This document shows positions 23,240-32,670 of a stretch of DNA of 34,730 nucleotides, piece after piece. The stretch spans positions 1 through 34,730 of IMG/VR virus record IMGVR_UViG_3300046009_001305. The stretch is one strand, 5' to 3'. The notes under the pieces were generated by a model. That model was given only the letters and a program-made list of their open reading frames with translations. It was not told the origin of the DNA and did no database searches. A program made the translations under genes and the position numbers. The stretch's first letter is position 1, and each line of letters starts with the position of its first letter. The stretch is from a virus.

Positions 23240-23482
23240 TTATTGAATGGGATGTGTTTGAACGGACATGCTTGACATGATGTGGTCAAGCTGCACTGCG
23301 ACATGCAGGCAGTACTCCTGCTGGGTTAGCGTCGAGTCCTTGCCAGCCATTGCCAGCATGGTGATCAGAGCGTTGACTGTGACACTGAACTCGTCGCCAC
23401 TGTCACGCATCATGTCGTTGATCTTCGTGACCACAGCCATGACTCGGTTGTGGTACTGGTCTTCGTTGGTTACGGTGTCCAT
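23240..23482 (-). CDS. Hypothetical 80-residue protein
   Basis: Function not recognised. It appears fully helical, with Met-rich amphipathic helices (MAVVTKINDMMRDSG, NALITMLAMAG, CLHVAVQLDHIMSSM). The start overlaps the stop of the metallopeptidase/VWA gene by 1 bp (TGATG), with GGAG inside the upstream gene. Its tight coupling makes it a candidate small partner of the MoxR/VWA cassette. Confidence 0.65.
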   Translation of the reverse strand: MDTVTNEDQYHNRVMAVVTKINDMMRDSGDEFSVTVNALITMLAMAGKDSTLTQQEYCLHVAVQLDHIMSSMSVQTHPIQ

Positions 23483-24606
23483 CAGTTCATCTCCACGACT
23501 TCACCGAAGGGTGCGGTGCCGGGATCAGTCGTGACCCACAGCACTGGTGCATCGGGCTGATCACCGAAGCTATGGCAGCACAGATCGGTCAGGAACACGA
23601 TGGCTACAGGGTCAAGTCCTTGCTCGATGATCTTGTCGAAGACCGGAGCAAAGTCAGTGCCGCCACCGCCGTGAGGCTTGATGTCGAGGTCGTCGTGCTG
23701 CTCGTAGGATTCCACGTGGCTGACCTCACTGTCGAAGTACAACACATGGATACGTGCTGGCATGAGGTCGTCCTTGACGATGCTGATCTCAGCAGCGAAC
23801 TGGTTGATGGTGGCTTGGGTTATGGAGCCGGAGCAGTCCACAGCGAACACGATCTCACCCATCTGCTCACCACTGACACTGGGCAGGTACAGTCCTTGCG
23901 CAATGAAGCGGCGATTGAACCGGGAGAATGATCGCTGGTCGGTGCGGGCCTTGACGAGGAAGCGTTGCAGCACATCACGCCAGTCCACCTTGGGTTGCAG
24001 CACCTGATCCACAAGACGTTGCATGTTGGCAGACAGCTTGCCCATCATCTTGGCAGCTTGCGCAGCTTGGGCCACCTTCACCTTCCACTCAGCTTGCTGC
24101 TGACCCTGCTCGGCTGGGCCACCAGCGCCATCCTCGCAGTCATCCATCAGGCCATCGGCACCACTGTCCTCGTCCTGCTCTGGCAAGATGTTGTAGATGC
24201 CCTCACTGGTGCCGCCACCAGCGTTGTAGATGTTGGGGTCATGCAGTCCGAGCTTGGGCATCCGGCCAATGCTGTCATCCACCAACAGCTTGTTGATCAC
24301 GTAGTCAGCGGCCATGTTCCAGCGCCGGGGTTGGCGCTCACCACGGCGATAGTTGTGCTCCAGCATGGGGTGCATACACTCATGGGCCACAAGGAACTTC
24401 ACCTCCTCATCGGTCAGGCTGTCCACGAACTCGGGGTTGAACGCCACCCGCTTGCCGTTGGTGGCAGCGGTCTTGATGCTCTCGTCGAATACGAACGGCA
24501 TGTTCAAGGCGATGGTGCCGATGAACGGATGCTCCAGAATCAGAGCGGTCTTGGCTTTCGCCAGCTTGGTGGTCAGCTTCTTCATGTCAATGGTTGCAGT
24601 TGTCAT
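23482..24606 (-). CDS. DUF2201-type metallopeptidase-like / VWA protein
   Basis: 374 residues with two recognisable halves. N-terminal: HECMH at 75-79 (HExxH zinc motif) followed by RRWNMAADYVIN with D101 as a possible third ligand, the DUF2201_N pattern. Middle: an acidic Gly/Gln linker ~142-172. C-terminal: a VWA-like domain with an intact-looking MIDAS, D257-x-S259-x-S261 in FAVDCSGSI, T317 in GGGGTDF and D341 in FLTDLC. VWA proteins of this kind partner MoxR AAA+ ATPases, and a MoxR-like gene lies 1.4 kb upstream in the same operon. The start at 24606 is set by AAGGAG; a longer frame to 24648 lacks one. Whether the HExxH site is catalytic is unknown. Confidence 0.88.
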   Translation of the reverse strand: MTTATIDMKKLTTKLAKAKTALILEHPFIGTIALNMPFVFDESIKTAATNGKRVAFNPEFVDSLTDEEVKFLVAHECMHPMLEHNYRRGERQPRRWNMAADYVINKLLVDDSIGRMPKLGLHDPNIYNAGGGTSEGIYNILPEQDEDSGADGLMDDCEDGAGGPAEQGQQQAEWKVKVAQAAQAAKMMGKLSANMQRLVDQVLQPKVDWRDVLQRFLVKARTDQRSFSRFNRRFIAQGLYLPSVSGEQMGEIVFAVDCSGSITQATINQFAAEISIVKDDLMPARIHVLYFDSEVSHVESYEQHDDLDIKPHGGGGTDFAPVFDKIIEQGLDPVAIVFLTDLCCHSFGDQPDAPVLWVTTDPGTAPFGEVVEMN

Positions 24607-24797
24607 TTCACACTCCTTGGTTTGCGTTTCTTGGGTACGTTGCGCCATGAACTACCCAGTCGCTGACGTAGCAGCAACAGGACAGGCCCAGCGATGTCAT
24701 CGTACACACCGGGATCGGTCTTCAGGATCACTTGGATCAGGTCATACGCTGCTTGTATGGCAGTGCCATCAGCGTCAAAAATATCCTCCTTGTTCAT
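24603..24797 (-). CDS. Hypothetical 64-residue protein in the MoxR/VWA cassette
   Basis: Function not recognised. The N-terminal half is acidic and helical (EDIFDADGTAIQAAYDLIQVI). The C-terminal end is very basic (RNVPKKRKPRSVK). It overlaps both neighbours by 4 bp (ATGA at each end) and has a GAGGGGG SD, so translation is tightly coupled to the zinc-ribbon protein and the VWA protein. Confidence 0.65.
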   Translation of the reverse strand: MNKEDIFDADGTAIQAAYDLIQVILKTDPGVYDDIAGPVLLLLRQRLGSSWRNVPKKRKPRSVK

Positions 24798-25984: not shown

Positions 25985-26974
25985 TCAGAACAGCACGTTC
26001 TGGTGGTTGATCGACCACTTGGTGAAGGCTTGGGTGTTAGCCAAGTCAGGGTTGCGCCGTGCCGCATAGCTGACAGTCAGCACAGAGAACTCGGGGGGCA
26101 TACGTTCGCTGTACTGGCAGACCCTCTCGAAGTTGCTCTCGGTGGAACGCTGGGCCAAGGCACCGGACAGGGCATACAGGGTCGCTGGGTCTTTGGGAAC
26201 GTCAGCAGTCTGTGGGTTGAGCAGGATGGCGTCAGGGTTGGGGAGCTTGCGGAAGATACGTACAAACCCTACGAACTCAGCAGCAGCACCCTCACCGACA
26301 GCACCCTTGAAGCACTCGAACTCAGCCTCGGATGGGACAGTGCCAAGCACATCGGACACACCGTCAACCCATGCTCTGGGGGTAGCGTTCTGGTCACGCT
26401 GTGGGTCGAAGTCGTGCAACAAGTTGGGACGAAAGCGGATGAACGAGATCACCTCGGGCTTGACACCGTTGTTGATGGCCCATGTTGTCCAGTCGTCGAG
26501 GTGGGTTTCCAACTCGATCACAGTCTCACGGTTACGGAGGTGGCTCAGTACCCGGTTGGCACCAGCACGGTCAGCTTGGCGGTTGCCAGTGGACACCACC
26601 ATCCAGCCATCTGGCATGGGCACACCATGCAGAGTCCGGGCTTGGCAGATATTGGCAAGCACCTTTTGCAGGTCAGGCCCAGCTTGGTTGCGGTCGTCGA
26701 ACAGCAGGATGCCATGCTCGGGAGCCTTGCCTTTCACAGGAAACCAGTCGGGTAGCTTGTAGTGCAACGTGTTGCTGTCTGTTTCGGGGAACAGGATACC
26801 GAAGTCCTCGACCAGCATGGTGGGCATGTGGCGTTCGATGCAGGGGATGTCCAGTTCTTGGGCCACCTCGTGAACGATGGTGGTCTTGCCACCGCCGGGT
26901 GAACCCTCGATGGACAGGGTACGGGTGATGGGGAACAGAGACTTGATTGTCTCTTTGAGAAGTGTGGCTCGCAT
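25985..26974 (-). CDS. MoxR-like AAA+ ATPase
   Basis: 329 residues. Walker A is GSPGGGKT at 24-31. Walker B is ILLFDD at 89-94, where the usual DE is replaced by DD. Sensor 1 is VVSTGN at 126-131, followed by an Arg that may serve as a finger. The insert VEDFGILFPE and the layout match the MoxR/AAA_5 group, which remodels proteins with VWA-domain partners (compare RavA-ViaA and CoxD-CoxE). The VWA partner candidate is at 23482-24606. The ATG has AAAGGA 8 nt upstream, and the gene starts 2 bp after the 77-residue gene. A role in remodelling a host or virion complex is inference. Confidence 0.88.
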   Translation of the reverse strand: MRATLLKETIKSLFPITRTLSIEGSPGGGKTTIVHEVAQELDIPCIERHMPTMLVEDFGILFPETDSNTLHYKLPDWFPVKGKAPEHGILLFDDRNQAGPDLQKVLANICQARTLHGVPMPDGWMVVSTGNRQADRAGANRVLSHLRNRETVIELETHLDDWTTWAINNGVKPEVISFIRFRPNLLHDFDPQRDQNATPRAWVDGVSDVLGTVPSEAEFECFKGAVGEGAAAEFVGFVRIFRKLPNPDAILLNPQTADVPKDPATLYALSGALAQRSTESNFERVCQYSERMPPEFSVLTVSYAARRNPDLANTQAFTKWSINHQNVLF

Positions 26975-28843: not shown

Positions 28844-29041
28844 TTACTTCATCAGGATACGTGCATCGTAGCCATCGGCCACGAGTGTGTTGAGGAACTT
28901 GACAGCGGCACTGTCACGTTTGAAGGCTTGGAACTTCATATCGTAGCCGTCTATCCACTTGACAATGAAGCGAAGGGATTCCTGCTTACGTGGTTTACGT
29001 GGGGCGATGTAAGGTAATTGGGTAACTTTCACAGTTGACAT
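28844..29041 (-). CDS. Hypothetical 65-residue basic protein, first gene of main leftward run
   Basis: Function not recognised. Lys/Arg-rich (PRKPRKQESLRF) with a beta-alpha core (FIVKWIDGYDMKFQAFKRDS). The ATG at 29041 has TGGAG 9 nt upstream. It is the first gene after the non-coding region and lies 47 bp downstream of copy A of the duplicated element, which may therefore drive or regulate it. Confidence 0.6.
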   Translation of the reverse strand: MSTVKVTQLPYIAPRKPRKQESLRFIVKWIDGYDMKFQAFKRDSAAVKFLNTLVADGYDARILMK

Positions 29042-29082: not shown

Positions 29083-29125
29083 GACCGAAATTCAGACTGG
29101 CACGGGCCGTCGAAAAGATCAAGTT
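29083..29125 (-). repeat. Duplicated 43-45 bp element, copy A
   Basis: Read leftward: AACTTGATCTTTT, then a variable middle, then CCCGTG.CAGTCTGAATTT. Only a few positions in the middle differ from copy B at 30364-30408. TTGATC and CAGTCT are separated by 17 bp in both copies. Copy A lies just upstream of the 65-residue gene. A promoter or shared regulator site is likely. Confidence 0.7.
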
Positions 29126-29309
29126 GCGGCCCGCTAGATGCGGGCGATGCGGAATAATCTACGGAGTTGCGTAAATGATCTACGAATAAGTGTCAAGTTA
29201 GATTGCTCGTAGATCGCAGAAATCCAATGAAATCAACGACTTAGCTGGGACGATCTAAACAATCTACGTTTTTGGGAATAATGTTGGGCAGAAATTAAAG
29301 AGTGTGGCT

Positions 29310-29328
29310 CATTTCATAATATGAAATG
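29310..29328. promoter_or_regulatory. 19-bp palindrome, operator-like
   Basis: CATTTCATA, one central base, TATGAAATG: two perfect 9-bp arms. Size and symmetry fit an operator for a dimeric HTH protein, for example the one encoded at 14207-14494, though no direct link can be shown. Confidence 0.6.
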
Positions 29329-29348
29329 GGAAAAAAATCGCTCAGGAA

Positions 29349-29388
29349 CTGCTTAAAAAATAAGCAGATTATCTATATCATCTATATC
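29349..29388. repeat. Short hairpin followed by 9-bp tandem repeat
   Basis: CTGCTTA-AAAAA-TAAGCAG (29349-29367) is a perfect 7-bp inverted repeat. It is followed by two head-to-tail ATCTATATC units (29371-29388) in a low-GC stretch. This is the most easily melted part of the window by base composition. Confidence 0.65.
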
Positions 29389-29563
29389 GTTATTTATTTT
29401 GAGCTTGTGGTCAAATCATCGTAAGTGGTTGATTTCATTGGACTTTTCCTCTAACCTTACACTTTACAAGTGTCAAGTTAACCGAGGTATATTCCCAAAA
29501 TCGCGTCAACTTAAAACGTAGATTGTTGCATGTATAGTTAGATTGTGTCAGGTTAGCCCCTAC

Positions 29564-29592
29564 TTGACACTTATTGTGTAATGTTGTAAACT
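29564..29592 (+). promoter_or_regulatory. Strong sigma70-like promoter, rightward
   Basis: TTGACA (29564-29569), 17-bp spacer, TAAACT (29587-29592); predicted start near 29599. It points rightward, antisense to the two tiny leftward genes and towards the packaging operon more than 1 kb away. It may make a leader or regulatory RNA. Confidence 0.6.
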
Positions 29593-29721
29593 ACTAGCGC
29601 CCCGATGTATAAAGTTAGTGTACAGCGCATTGCGACGACCTACAAACCCCCGACGTATGGCGAGCGTAGCGAGCGAATCGAAAACCTGACAGCCCCCATA
29701 CTCAGTCACGAACGCATTAGA

Positions 29722-29755
29722 CAAAAGAAAACCCGCTCACCTTGCGGTGGCGGGT
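29722..29755 (-). terminator. Intrinsic terminator T2, leftward
   Basis: On the minus strand ACCCGCCACC and GGTG(A)GCGGGT form a 10-bp stem with one bulged base and a GCAA tetraloop, followed by TTTCTTTTG. It lies 6 bp past the stop of the 49-residue membrane-protein gene. Confidence 0.8.
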
Positions 29756-29761
29756 CTGTGG

Positions 29762-29911
29762 TTAGAAGCTCATCAAGACGATGAGCAGGAAGTAGAGGAA
29801 CGGCGCAAGGATGATCGCGCCAAGGATGACCTTGGCGTCTTCACTCATGTGGCGCTCTTTGTAGTGGTGCTCTGCGTGTTCGCGCAGTGCGCGGCGTTCG
29901 TACTCGGACAT
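29762..29911 (-). CDS. 49-residue single-pass membrane protein
   Basis: A complete short frame between two leftward terminators. The N-terminal 26 residues are charged and His-rich (MSEYERRALREHAEHHYKER...). Residues ~28-49 are one hydrophobic helix (VILGAIILAPFLYFLLIVLM) ending SF. The SD is weak (GGAAA, 8-9 nt). Placement right after T1 and right before T2 argues for a real, separately controlled gene. Function unknown; small phage membrane proteins include holins and exclusion factors. Confidence 0.65.
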   Translation of the reverse strand: MSEYERRALREHAEHHYKERHMSEDAKVILGAIILAPFLYFLLIVLMSF

Positions 29912-29924
29912 AGGGTTTTCCAAT

Positions 29925-29957
29925 CAAAAAAGAACCCGGGCACTGTCACTGCCCGGG
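29925..29957 (-). terminator. Intrinsic terminator T1, leftward
   Basis: CCCGGGCA and TGCCCGGG form a perfect 8-bp stem with a 7-nt loop, followed on the minus strand by TTCTTTTTTG. It directly follows the 93-residue gene (stop at 29964) and would stop most leftward transcripts unless they are antiterminated. Confidence 0.88.
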
Positions 29958-29963
29958 GCTTAC

Positions 29964-30245
29964 TTAGAAGCTAAACTTCGGCTTCGTTGATGCTGCCGTC
30001 TTCCGGTCGCCAGCGGTGGTCTTTGCCACTGCCAGCTTGCCGAAGCGGTAGCCGAAGGCCAAGGATTCTTCAGGCTTGATCAGATCAGCCTTGCGAGTGT
30101 CAGCGATGAAGGATTCTTCAAACGCTGCCTTGGCTTCGGTCGCTGCCTTTTGGGCCTTCCGTAAAGCGCCAAGGCGCTTCATGGTTTCACCCTTCAGGGA
30201 AGTTTCATCAACTGCGAACCAGCTCAACTCTTTGCTATCGGACAT
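29964..30245 (-). CDS. 93-residue basic protein, first gene behind boxA
   Basis: Function not recognised. The middle (~22-50) is an Ala/Lys/Glu helix (ALRKAQKAATEAKAAFEESF) and the C-terminus is basic and Lys/Thr/Ala-rich, ending KPKFSF. The ATG has TAGGAGA 6 nt upstream. Its leader carries boxA and an 11-bp inverted repeat, and a strong terminator follows. This suggests an abundant early product, perhaps a host-takeover or nucleic-acid-binding protein; that is inference from layout. Confidence 0.7.
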   Translation of the reverse strand: MSDSKELSWFAVDETSLKGETMKRLGALRKAQKAATEAKAAFEESFIADTRKADLIKPEESLAFGYRFGKLAVAKTTAGDRKTAASTKPKFSF

Positions 30246-30258
30246 AACTATCTCCTAC

Positions 30259-30310
30259 GTGATAACCCTCATCCGGGTTCGATATGATCCCTTCCAACAA
30301 GGGTTATCAC
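30259..30310 (-). promoter_or_regulatory. 11-bp inverted repeat in the leader of the 93-residue gene
   Basis: GTGATAACCCT (30259-30269) and AGGGTTATCAC (30300-30310) are perfect complements 30 bp apart. In the leftward mRNA the stem ends 2-4 nt before the TAGGAGA SD, so it could control translation or stability; as DNA it could be a two-site operator. Confidence 0.75.
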
Positions 30311-30330
30311 CAAGAGATATTTACGTCACA

Positions 30331-30343
30331 TTGTTAAAGAGCG
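30331..30343 (-). promoter_or_regulatory. boxA antitermination element (leftward)
   Basis: The minus strand reads CGCTCTTTAACAA, identical over 12 nt to the rrn boxA core GCTCTTTAACAA and matching the lambdoid boxA consensus CGCTCTTTA. In rRNA operons and lambda nut sites this RNA binds NusB-NusE (S10). It precedes two intrinsic terminators and the long early operon in the right orientation, so antitermination of the leftward transcript is likely. Confidence 0.75.
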
Positions 30344-30363
30344 TTTGTCTGAAGTGCGATCAC

Positions 30364-30408
30364 TGCCGACAAATTCAGACTGACACGGGTCGGCAAAAAG
30401 ATCAAGTT
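30364..30408 (-). repeat. Duplicated 43-45 bp element, copy B
   Basis: Second copy of the element at 29083-29125, same orientation, 21 bp upstream of boxA. Here the variable middle and flank make a perfect inverted repeat (TGCCGAC / GTCGGCA, 18-nt loop) that copy A keeps only partly. It may be a leftward promoter or an RNA hairpin ahead of boxA, as boxB precedes boxA in rrn leaders. Confidence 0.7.
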
Positions 30409-31105: not shown

Positions 31106-31292
31106 AGACTTGTTCACCCAGACCTACGAGGGTTTCAAAGCCCTGAAGTTGCGCACCGCCACCGAGGCCGTGGCCGTGGAGAACGAACTCAACCGCCAGA
31201 GCAAGTCGTTCCAGACCAAGATCACACGCAGCAAGAAGCACGGGCGCGAGTTCGTGATCCTGTTGGTCAGCGGAGCCGCACATGCCGCTTGA
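31083..31292 (+). CDS. Hypothetical 69-residue protein between terminase genes
   Basis: Function not recognised. Helical N-terminus (NIEDLFTQTYEGFKALKLRT) then a basic middle (QTKITRSKKHGREFVILLV). The ATG at 31083 lies inside the end of the small-terminase gene, and the stop overlaps the large-terminase start by 11 bp, so it should be translationally coupled. It may assist packaging, but no motif shows this. Confidence 0.6.
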   Translation: MQLPSNIEDLFTQTYEGFKALKLRTATEAVAVENELNRQSKSFQTKITRSKKHGREFVILLVSGAAHAA

Positions 31293-32670
31293 TATTTCAT
31301 ACACGCCGCCGCCCACGGGCAAGAAGTTCATGGCGTCCAACGCCAAGATGCGCACCCTGATGGGGCCGGTCGGCTCGGGCAAGTCCGTCACCTGCTCGTT
31401 CGAGGTGGTGCGCCGTGCGTCCATGCAAGCGCCCAACGCGCAGGGCATACGCAAGTCCCGTGCGGCCATCGTCCGTGAAACCGTGCGCCAGTTGCAGGAC
31501 ACCACCATCAAGACCTTCCTCGACTGGTTCCCACCGGGCCAGTGCGGGGACTACATGCGCACCACCAAGACCTACTTCTTCAAGGTGGGCGACGTGGAGT
31601 GCGAGATCATGTTCCGGGCGCTGGATGACGCCGACGACGTGGCGAACTTGAACTCGCTGGAATTGACCTTCGCATGGTTCAACGAGTGCCGGGACATCCA
31701 CCCCGACATCGTGGACGCCATGTCCAAACGTATTGGACGTTTCCCGTCGGCCAAGGACGGCGGGCCGACGTGGCATGGCATGTGGGCGGATACCAACCCG
31801 CCGACGATGGACACGTGGTGGTACTACCAGATGGAGGGGCTTGACCCCAAGGACGGCGTGTCGGCCAACAACAACGGCTGGGATGTGTTCAAGCAACCCT
31901 CCGGGCGCAGCGTCTACGCCGAGAACATTGAGAACTTGCCAGAGGGGTATTACGACACCCAAGGCCGCAGCGAAGAATACATCCGTGTCTACATCGACGG
32001 TGACTACGGGTTGTCCAGCGCCGGTATGCCGGTGTACAAATACTTCCGGCCTGACTACCACATGGCGAAGGAGCGCCTGCGGCCCATCGTCAACGGCGTG
32101 CGGCCCATCGTCATCGGCATGGACTTAGGGTTAACCCCAGCAGCCGTGATCGGGCAGCAAGACCCACGGGGCCGTGCCCTCGTCCTCGACGAGTGTGTGA
32201 GCTTTGACATGGGGGTGCAGCGGTTTGTGCGCACCATGCTCAAGCCCTTGCTGTACGAACGCTTCCCCGGCGCTCCGGTGCTCATCGTCGTTGACCCAGC
32301 GGGCACGCAGCGGGCGCAGACCGACGAACGCTCGGCGGTGGACATCATCAAAGCCGAGGGGATGAAAGTCATCCCGGCCAAGACCAACGCCGTCGCGGCC
32401 CGCATCAACGCCGTGGACGAGTACCTCATGCGGCAGGTGGACGGCGACCCGGCGTTCCTCGTTGACCCACGCTGCACGCAACTCAAAGCGGCCATGATGG
32501 GCGGCTACCGCTTCAAGCCCAAGGGTGATGGGGACATCGACAAGAACAAGCACTCGCACGTGGCCGAAGCCTTGCAGTACCTGATGTTGCACATTGGCAA
32601 CGCCAGCGAGGGGCACACGCTCCAGCAGCGCCGGGAGATCAAACGGGTCGCGTCGGCGGGCTGGACGTGA
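31282..32670 (+). CDS. Terminase large subunit (packaging ATPase-nuclease)
   Basis: 462 residues. The ATPase domain has Walker A GPVGSGKS at 28-35, a Walker B-like strand ELTFAWFNECRD (FNE rather than DE) and the coupling motif ADTNPP. The nuclease domain is RNase H-like: GMDLGLTPAAVIG with the first Asp, VVDPAGT with the second, and SHVAEALQYL near the end, where many relatives have an Asp in place of Glu. It cuts concatemers and pumps DNA into the prohead through the portal encoded downstream. The ATG has CGGAG 7-8 nt upstream. A terminator follows within 60 bp. Confidence 0.93.
   Translation: MPLDISYTPPPTGKKFMASNAKMRTLMGPVGSGKSVTCSFEVVRRASMQAPNAQGIRKSRAAIVRETVRQLQDTTIKTFLDWFPPGQCGDYMRTTKTYFFKVGDVECEIMFRALDDADDVANLNSLELTFAWFNECRDIHPDIVDAMSKRIGRFPSAKDGGPTWHGMWADTNPPTMDTWWYYQMEGLDPKDGVSANNNGWDVFKQPSGRSVYAENIENLPEGYYDTQGRSEEYIRVYIDGDYGLSSAGMPVYKYFRPDYHMAKERLRPIVNGVRPIVIGMDLGLTPAAVIGQQDPRGRALVLDECVSFDMGVQRFVRTMLKPLLYERFPGAPVLIVVDPAGTQRAQTDERSAVDIIKAEGMKVIPAKTNAVAARINAVDEYLMRQVDGDPAFLVDPRCTQLKAAMMGGYRFKPKGDGDIDKNKHSHVAEALQYLMLHIGNASEGHTLQQRREIKRVASAGWT

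Follow-up and report, generated by a model that had tools for sequence, protein, structure and literature searches.

A putative rRNA-style boxA leader ahead of a short, terminator-containing operon in a phage group

Phage boxA elements, as found in the nut sites of lambdoid phages, and put RNAs have long been known; put contacts the zinc-binding domain of the polymerase (beta' subunit) via defined bases and acts without Nus factors. To our knowledge, described phage antitermination relies either on a phage protein (N, Q and others) or on a phage RNA acting directly on the polymerase (put). The put RNA of ~70 nt comprises two stem-loops just downstream of PL (PMC9378689). In rRNA leaders a hairpin precedes boxA, the reverse of the lambda nut order (PMC6614801, PMC10250234), and boxA is necessary and sufficient for assembly of the rRNA complex (PMC10250234). 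This complex is classically tied to Rho-dependent termination and its antitermination role in vivo is disputed (PMC4807359); in vitro, together with SuhB, it suppresses Rho-dependent and also intrinsic termination (PMC6614801). A boxA may further act on translation, as does the one in the suhB 5'UTR, which represses it (PMC5725501). The literature searched, from which most subscription journals were missing, contained no description of a phage with an rRNA-type boxA leader.

The window analyzed here is the whole of a 34.7-kb virus record (34,730 bases, ~58% G+C) whose genes include those for a terminase, a DNA polymerase, a helicase and a primase-helicase. A sequence-only reading had described an rrn-type boxA core in a leftward leader, followed by gene, terminator, gene and terminator. 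Both the boxA and this order were confirmed (Table 1), the first terminator (T1) by a generic scan as well as by folding and the second (T2) by folding. The 12-mer GCTCTTTAACAA occurs once in the 34,730 bases and in none of 100 shuffles. The same boxA is the window's sole exact match to the 11-nt consensus GYTCTTTAANA, which is the published gammaproteobacterial form (PMC5725501).

Table 1. Positions of the leader, operon and reference features in the window.
Feature	Position	Strand	Remarks
terL (terminase)	31282-32670		
Promoter A	30377..30405	minus	sigma70-like; TTGATC - 17 nt - CAGTCT
HP1, 5'-terminal hairpin	30347..30370	minus	GUC..GAC; imperfect in the window, strong in relatives
boxA, CGCTCTTTAACAA	30343-30331	minus	follows AAA(C), an arrangement also seen in some of the rRNA leaders sampled
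HP3, long hairpin	30249..30319	minus	masks the gene-1 Shine-Dalgarno (SD) sequence; apex UUNGAAG..CAUNNCG..CGGAU invariant
Gene 1, 93 aa	29964..30245	minus	conserved motif LAFGYRFGKLAVA
T1, intrinsic terminator	29926..29957	minus	CCCGGGCA-GTGACAG-TGCCCGGG-TTCTTTTTT; -17.2 kcal/mol; also found by generic scan
Gene 2, small membrane-like protein	29762..29911	minus	49 aa from ATG
T2, intrinsic terminator	29723..29754	minus	CCCGCCACCGCAAGGTGAGCGGG-TTTTCTTTT; -20.4 kcal/mol; missed by generic scan because of a bulge
Promoter B, main leftward operon	29094..29122	minus	same class as promoter A; leader without boxA
First gene of main leftward operon, 65 aa	28844..29041	minus	from the ORF list

Conservation of the element was examined by two routes. 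Searching viral contigs with terL returned at least 598 related stretches, from which 80 loci were fetched, and leaders were chosen by terminase position and promoter motif alone, boxA playing no part in the choice. Promoter A is the form that a conserved TTGACN-17-NAGTCTGAATTTGTCG promoter takes in the window (an exact match to the group pattern, with a chance expectation of 0.02 in the window). This promoter was present in 53 of the 55 terL-linked sequences with enough upstream DNA, and these 53 collapse to 24 distinct leaders. A boxA within one mismatch of the consensus was found in 20 of the 24, versus 0.6% of shuffled leaders; the 24 leaders come from related phages and do not represent independent events, and the sequence surrounding boxA has freely diverged. 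These counts support boxA as a genuine selected element. The second, independent route used the 93-aa gene-1 protein as the query and yielded 27 loci. Near relatives carry GYTCTTTAACAA-like sites upstream of gene 1, and distant relatives carry GCTCTTTGACAT, GCTGTTTGACAT, GTTCTTTGACAT or similar sequences at the same position. A broad promoter scan of viral contigs, which returned mostly coincidences within coding sequences, was used for cross-checking only. In the 10 gene-1 relatives searched for a terminase, terL was 82-85% identical to that of the window; consequently, these phages belong to a single group with two boxA types, the element having changed to the GCTSTTTGACAT type upstream of a homologous gene 1.

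To compare these types with those of bacteria, rRNA operons were taken from a random genome set (one phylum) and their boxA was located by mismatch scoring. An exact GCTCTTTAACAA lies in the 16S leader of 7 sampled genomes, some sampled leaders carry a hairpin-AAAC-GCTCTTTAACAA arrangement like that of the window, and two (L234-L235) resemble it in both order and junction. The rRNA leader boxA reads GCTCTTTGACAT in L252 and GCTGTTTGACAT in L253 and L254. These three genomes appear alphaproteobacteria-like, judging by short 16S sequences (L252, L254) and by the ALF968 probe site, which they match with 0, 0 and 1 mismatches, respectively; the site is a weak marker for L254, many other sampled 16S sequences also showing one mismatch. 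GCTSTTTGACAT is the boxA form of the alphaproteobacteria-like rRNA leaders sampled, and the two phage boxA types thus correspond to two sampled rRNA boxA types. We infer that phages with the second type may infect alphaproteobacteria. The identity of the element as boxA is highly probable. A role as a DNA operator was rejected on account of its position between covarying RNA hairpins and its switch between rRNA sequence types. A TGTGGG-type sequence occurs in several of the sampled rRNA leaders. No boxC (TGTGTGGG) was seen shortly after boxA on reading the leaders of the window and its relatives.

The terL relatives among GenBank phages are at most 46% identical to that of the window, and no promoter or boxA match was present upstream of terL in the three that were fetched (L204-L206). 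GenBank phages gave no match for two gene-1 types (three query proteins), the leader of one relative had no blastn match in the phage collection, and no cultured relative was found with the terL, gene-1 and leader queries tried. Concerning hosts, the prophage route led to a near relative encoded on only two MAG contigs, and a model of hairpin HP3 matched none of 299 genomes.

Initiation at promoter A is predicted near position 30370, so that the transcript would begin at a conserved GUCG. In most relatives HP1 is followed, zero to a few nucleotides on, by a second hairpin (HP2) and then by boxA, which is the rRNA order; in many of them the 28-54 nt between the predicted 5' end and boxA hold both hairpins, which begin at that end and are separated by 0-3 nt. 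Folding z-scores average -3.7 over 28 distinct leaders, and both stems covary, with 3-5 pair types at levels 4-8 of HP1 and 3-4 types at levels 0-5 of HP2. Pairs were counted per stem level since MAFFT misaligned these hairpins. The window itself lacks HP2 and its HP1 taken alone (z -1.7) is among the weakest of the set, the whole leader reaching z -4.5. boxA is predicted to be mostly unpaired in the leader ensemble. Rfam returned nothing above gathering thresholds, only weak chance-level matches with E up to 5. The sequence-only reading had recognized no boxB; a lambda-type boxB is indeed absent, but that statement was too narrow, given the covarying HP1 and HP3. With boxA in the folded stretch, many HP2 stems can change register: in eight leaders (L015, L022, L136, L042, L031, L012, L021, L006) HP2 can adopt two registers, one of which pairs the first bases of boxA, and a register shift could possibly switch boxA exposure itself on and off.

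Tandem hairpins at the predicted 5' end of many relatives would be expected if HP1-HP2 were, like HK022 put, an antiterminator made of RNA alone that acts directly on the polymerase, with boxA as an auxiliary. HP2 is, however, missing from the window, boxA is the most constant part of the leader, and the HP1 and HP2 stems and loops are free to vary in sequence, whereas put uses defined bases; we consider such an antiterminator very unlikely.

At least four gene-1 types that show no visible similarity to one another stand behind this one leader type. This bears on whether a phage-encoded factor, the gene-1 product or another, assembles with boxA and the hairpin into a lambda N-like complex. Gene 1 is first behind the signal and ahead of T1, as is N in lambda, but its product has no Arg-rich motif and no match in Pfam, PHROG or PDB that would assign it to a known family or fold, and the hairpin sequences vary freely, which would not be expected of a boxB with its own binding protein. 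Because the gene-1 types are dissimilar and the hairpins are not conserved in sequence, a dedicated phage factor is the less likely arrangement and, in our opinion, clearly improbable. An N-like fold for gene 1 was considered separately and rejected, the low-confidence model (a long helix and a beta-hairpin) having no PDB match.

In the subtype that includes the window, HP1 and boxA are followed by a further hairpin, HP3, which starts 11 nt after boxA and forms a ~24-bp stem. The HP3 model finds one copy per genome and only in this subtype, most relatives lacking it. Among its 22 pairs, 15 show compensatory changes; its z-score is -5.4 in the window and ranges from -5 to -7 in the subtype, and the gene-1 SD is paired at a probability of 0.98-1.0 in the predicted ensemble. 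By analogy with the lambda nutL-N leader, gene-1 translation is probably also controlled via HP3. Translational control of gene 1 is therefore, given HP3, a serious rival or companion to antitermination. As a rival it would consist of Nus-dependent control, with NusB-S10 bound to boxA and tethered to the polymerase keeping ribosomes off gene 1, T1 and gene 2 being secondary; HP3 may add a lock on the SD, which RNase III or some other factor might release. The strong covariation of the SD-masking HP3 argues for it, as do the suhB boxA, which represses even at 100 nt from the SD, and the repression of lambda N through nutL (PMC5725501). So does the short distance from boxA to the SD, ~10-20 nt in most relatives without HP3; in the window, with HP3 already over the SD, it is ~75 nt. 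Yet most relatives do without HP3, and terminators placed between boxA and promoterless genes would be left unexplained; we regard translational control as the main function of the leader as rather unlikely.

The placement of gene 2 points instead to antitermination. Its start codon follows the U-tract of T1 by 14 nt in the window and by 9-22 nt in at least 14 relatives, in which an SD follows directly behind T1 (it is weak in the window). With no room for a promoter, gene 2 would depend on read-through of T1, and the spacing bears out the earlier proposal to this effect. A gene-2 promoter inside gene 1 or T1 is conceivable, and partial leakage of T1 alone could be enough for gene 2. A terminator occupies the T1 position in most relatives; in two of them (L019 and L038) the gene-terminator unit occurs three times in series, and the alpha-type relatives often have just one terminator found. 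The C-terminal 28 aa of gene 2 are kept in several relatives as MS[DE]..KAI.GAI..AP..Y.LLV..MSF. A short transcript ending at strong terminators would also suit a decoy, in which short boxA RNA, made in large amounts, would sequester Nus factors and so depress rRNA synthesis in the host, as reported for high-level lambda nutL RNA, which titrates Nus factors and lowers rRNA expression (PMC4807359). A decoy leaves unexplained why gene 2 abuts T1, and we hold it to be the least probable reading of all.

The loops of the terminators were also compared. The 7-nt T1 loop GUGACAG recurs on 10 different stems, the next commonest 7-nt loop being found on 2; it is present in T1 of the window and of L001, L006, L008, L018, L021, L037, L207 and L213. 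From this recurrence it looks like a recognition site within the terminator. T2 loops are mostly of GNRA or UUCG types.

Beyond T2, ~680 bp precede the first gene of the main operon (ATG at 29041), which confirms the gap described previously, and relatives have ~500-700 bp without genes there. The sequence-only reading had made the ~18-kb operon depend on antitermination, with nothing but the 93-residue product expected without it. Neither claim is supported, the 18-kb operon being served by promoter B. A promoter of this class lies 47-87 nt from the first-gene ATG in the window and in 9 of the 13 relatives checked; L019 has a second promoter candidate nearer the ATG and three relatives have only weak matches. 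Homologues of the 65-aa gene in L018 and L207 also stand behind a boxA-less promoter of the same class. Promoter B leaders provide an internal control from the same genomes, and they have no boxA. With a boxA-less promoter of its own in the window and in most of the relatives checked, the 18-kb operon does not depend on antitermination, contrary to the earlier reading. Of the alternatives named in the earlier reading, the comparison with relatives favors two: a separate promoter, and the action of host Nus factors on their own.

Several other features of this region were recorded. The first genes of operons A and B are paralogue-like in L002, L006, L019, L029, L035, L051, L042 and L071, which suggests an ancestral duplication of promoter and gene with boxA on copy A only. 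The control region contains repeats, TAACTTGACAC and GTGTCAAGTTAG, at 29180-29620 (possible operators or an origin), a plus-strand promoter-like site, TTGACA-17-TAAACT, at 29564-29592, and a degenerate boxA-like ACTCTTTAATTTC at 29302-29290 (minus strand) with no conserved leader around it. On the minus strand, the leftward operon carries an AAA ATPase gene and a DUF2201 metallopeptidase/VWA-like gene (25985-26974 and 23482-24648), which recall MoxR-VWA pairs.

Taken together, we favor, with slightly better than even confidence, an rRNA-style, host-Nus-dependent antitermination leader serving the short operon gene 1-T1-gene 2-T2. This reading draws on the conserved boxA and its switch of rRNA type, the covarying hairpins, the position of gene 2 against T1 and the boxA-less second promoter. 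RNA polymerase would start at promoter A, and the nascent RNA would form its 5'-terminal hairpin and expose a boxA matched to the host. Judging from known boxA behavior, host NusB-S10 together with NusA, NusG and probably SuhB would load on boxA and stay tethered to the polymerase. The polymerase so modified would pass T1 more often, allowing gene 2 to be made, and would also be protected from Rho; T2 is most likely the operon end. The 18-kb operon would be transcribed separately from promoter B in the absence of the signal, and in the window type the hairpin over the gene-1 ribosome site would probably place gene-1 translation under control too. As intrinsic termination is reduced by the rRNA complex in vitro (PMC6614801), T1 is a plausible target. 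The strength of T1 as an intrinsic terminator and the lack of a visible boxC argue against this mechanism, as do the dispute over the rRNA complex in vivo, a leakage of T1 that could suffice for gene 2, the repressive boxA of suhB, the often single terminator of alpha-type relatives and the weak HP1 of the window. A more complete mimicry of the host rRNA leader is a tentative and somewhat doubtful extension: only host rRNA-antitermination factors would be used, with no phage protein, boxA would be re-tuned to the host lineage, and the covarying SD-masking hairpin with its invariant apex would couple the same event to gene-1 translation.

If the favored reading is true, a phage operon can borrow the host ribosomal antitermination machinery unchanged by copying the rRNA signal, and the locus would provide a compact natural setting for testing how the rRNA complex affects terminators of the intrinsic and Rho-dependent kinds, which is disputed. 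Confirmation would also make boxA type a possible clue to the class of host that an uncultured phage infects.

Compared with rrn leaders (boxB-boxA-boxC; NusA/B/E/G, SuhB, S4), the phage leader has the same boxA as several of those sampled, with a change of type inside the phage group, and likewise a hairpin immediately upstream of it and a sigma70-type promoter close upstream; unlike them, it heads a protein-coding phage operon, has no boxC, often has two tandem hairpins and is followed by intrinsic terminators between small genes. With lambda PL-nutL-N-tL1 it has in common the succession of promoter, boxA, RNA structure over the ribosome site of the first gene, gene, intrinsic terminator and further gene, but boxA is not followed by a boxB, an N-like protein is missing, and a separate promoter serves the main early operon. 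As in the suhB and C. koseri parE leaders, which exert BoxA-mediated repression, a 5'UTR boxA lies near the start of a protein-coding gene; those leaders differ from this one, which is structured, is followed by serial terminators and belongs to a phage. Relatives with HP1-HP2 recall HK022 put in that an early transcript opens with two neighboring stem-loops, whereas here boxA is central, stems and loops are not conserved in sequence and the window has no HP2. The combination of a host-type boxA, hairpins in rRNA order, no N, genes abutting terminators and an SD-masking hairpin is new to the literature searched.
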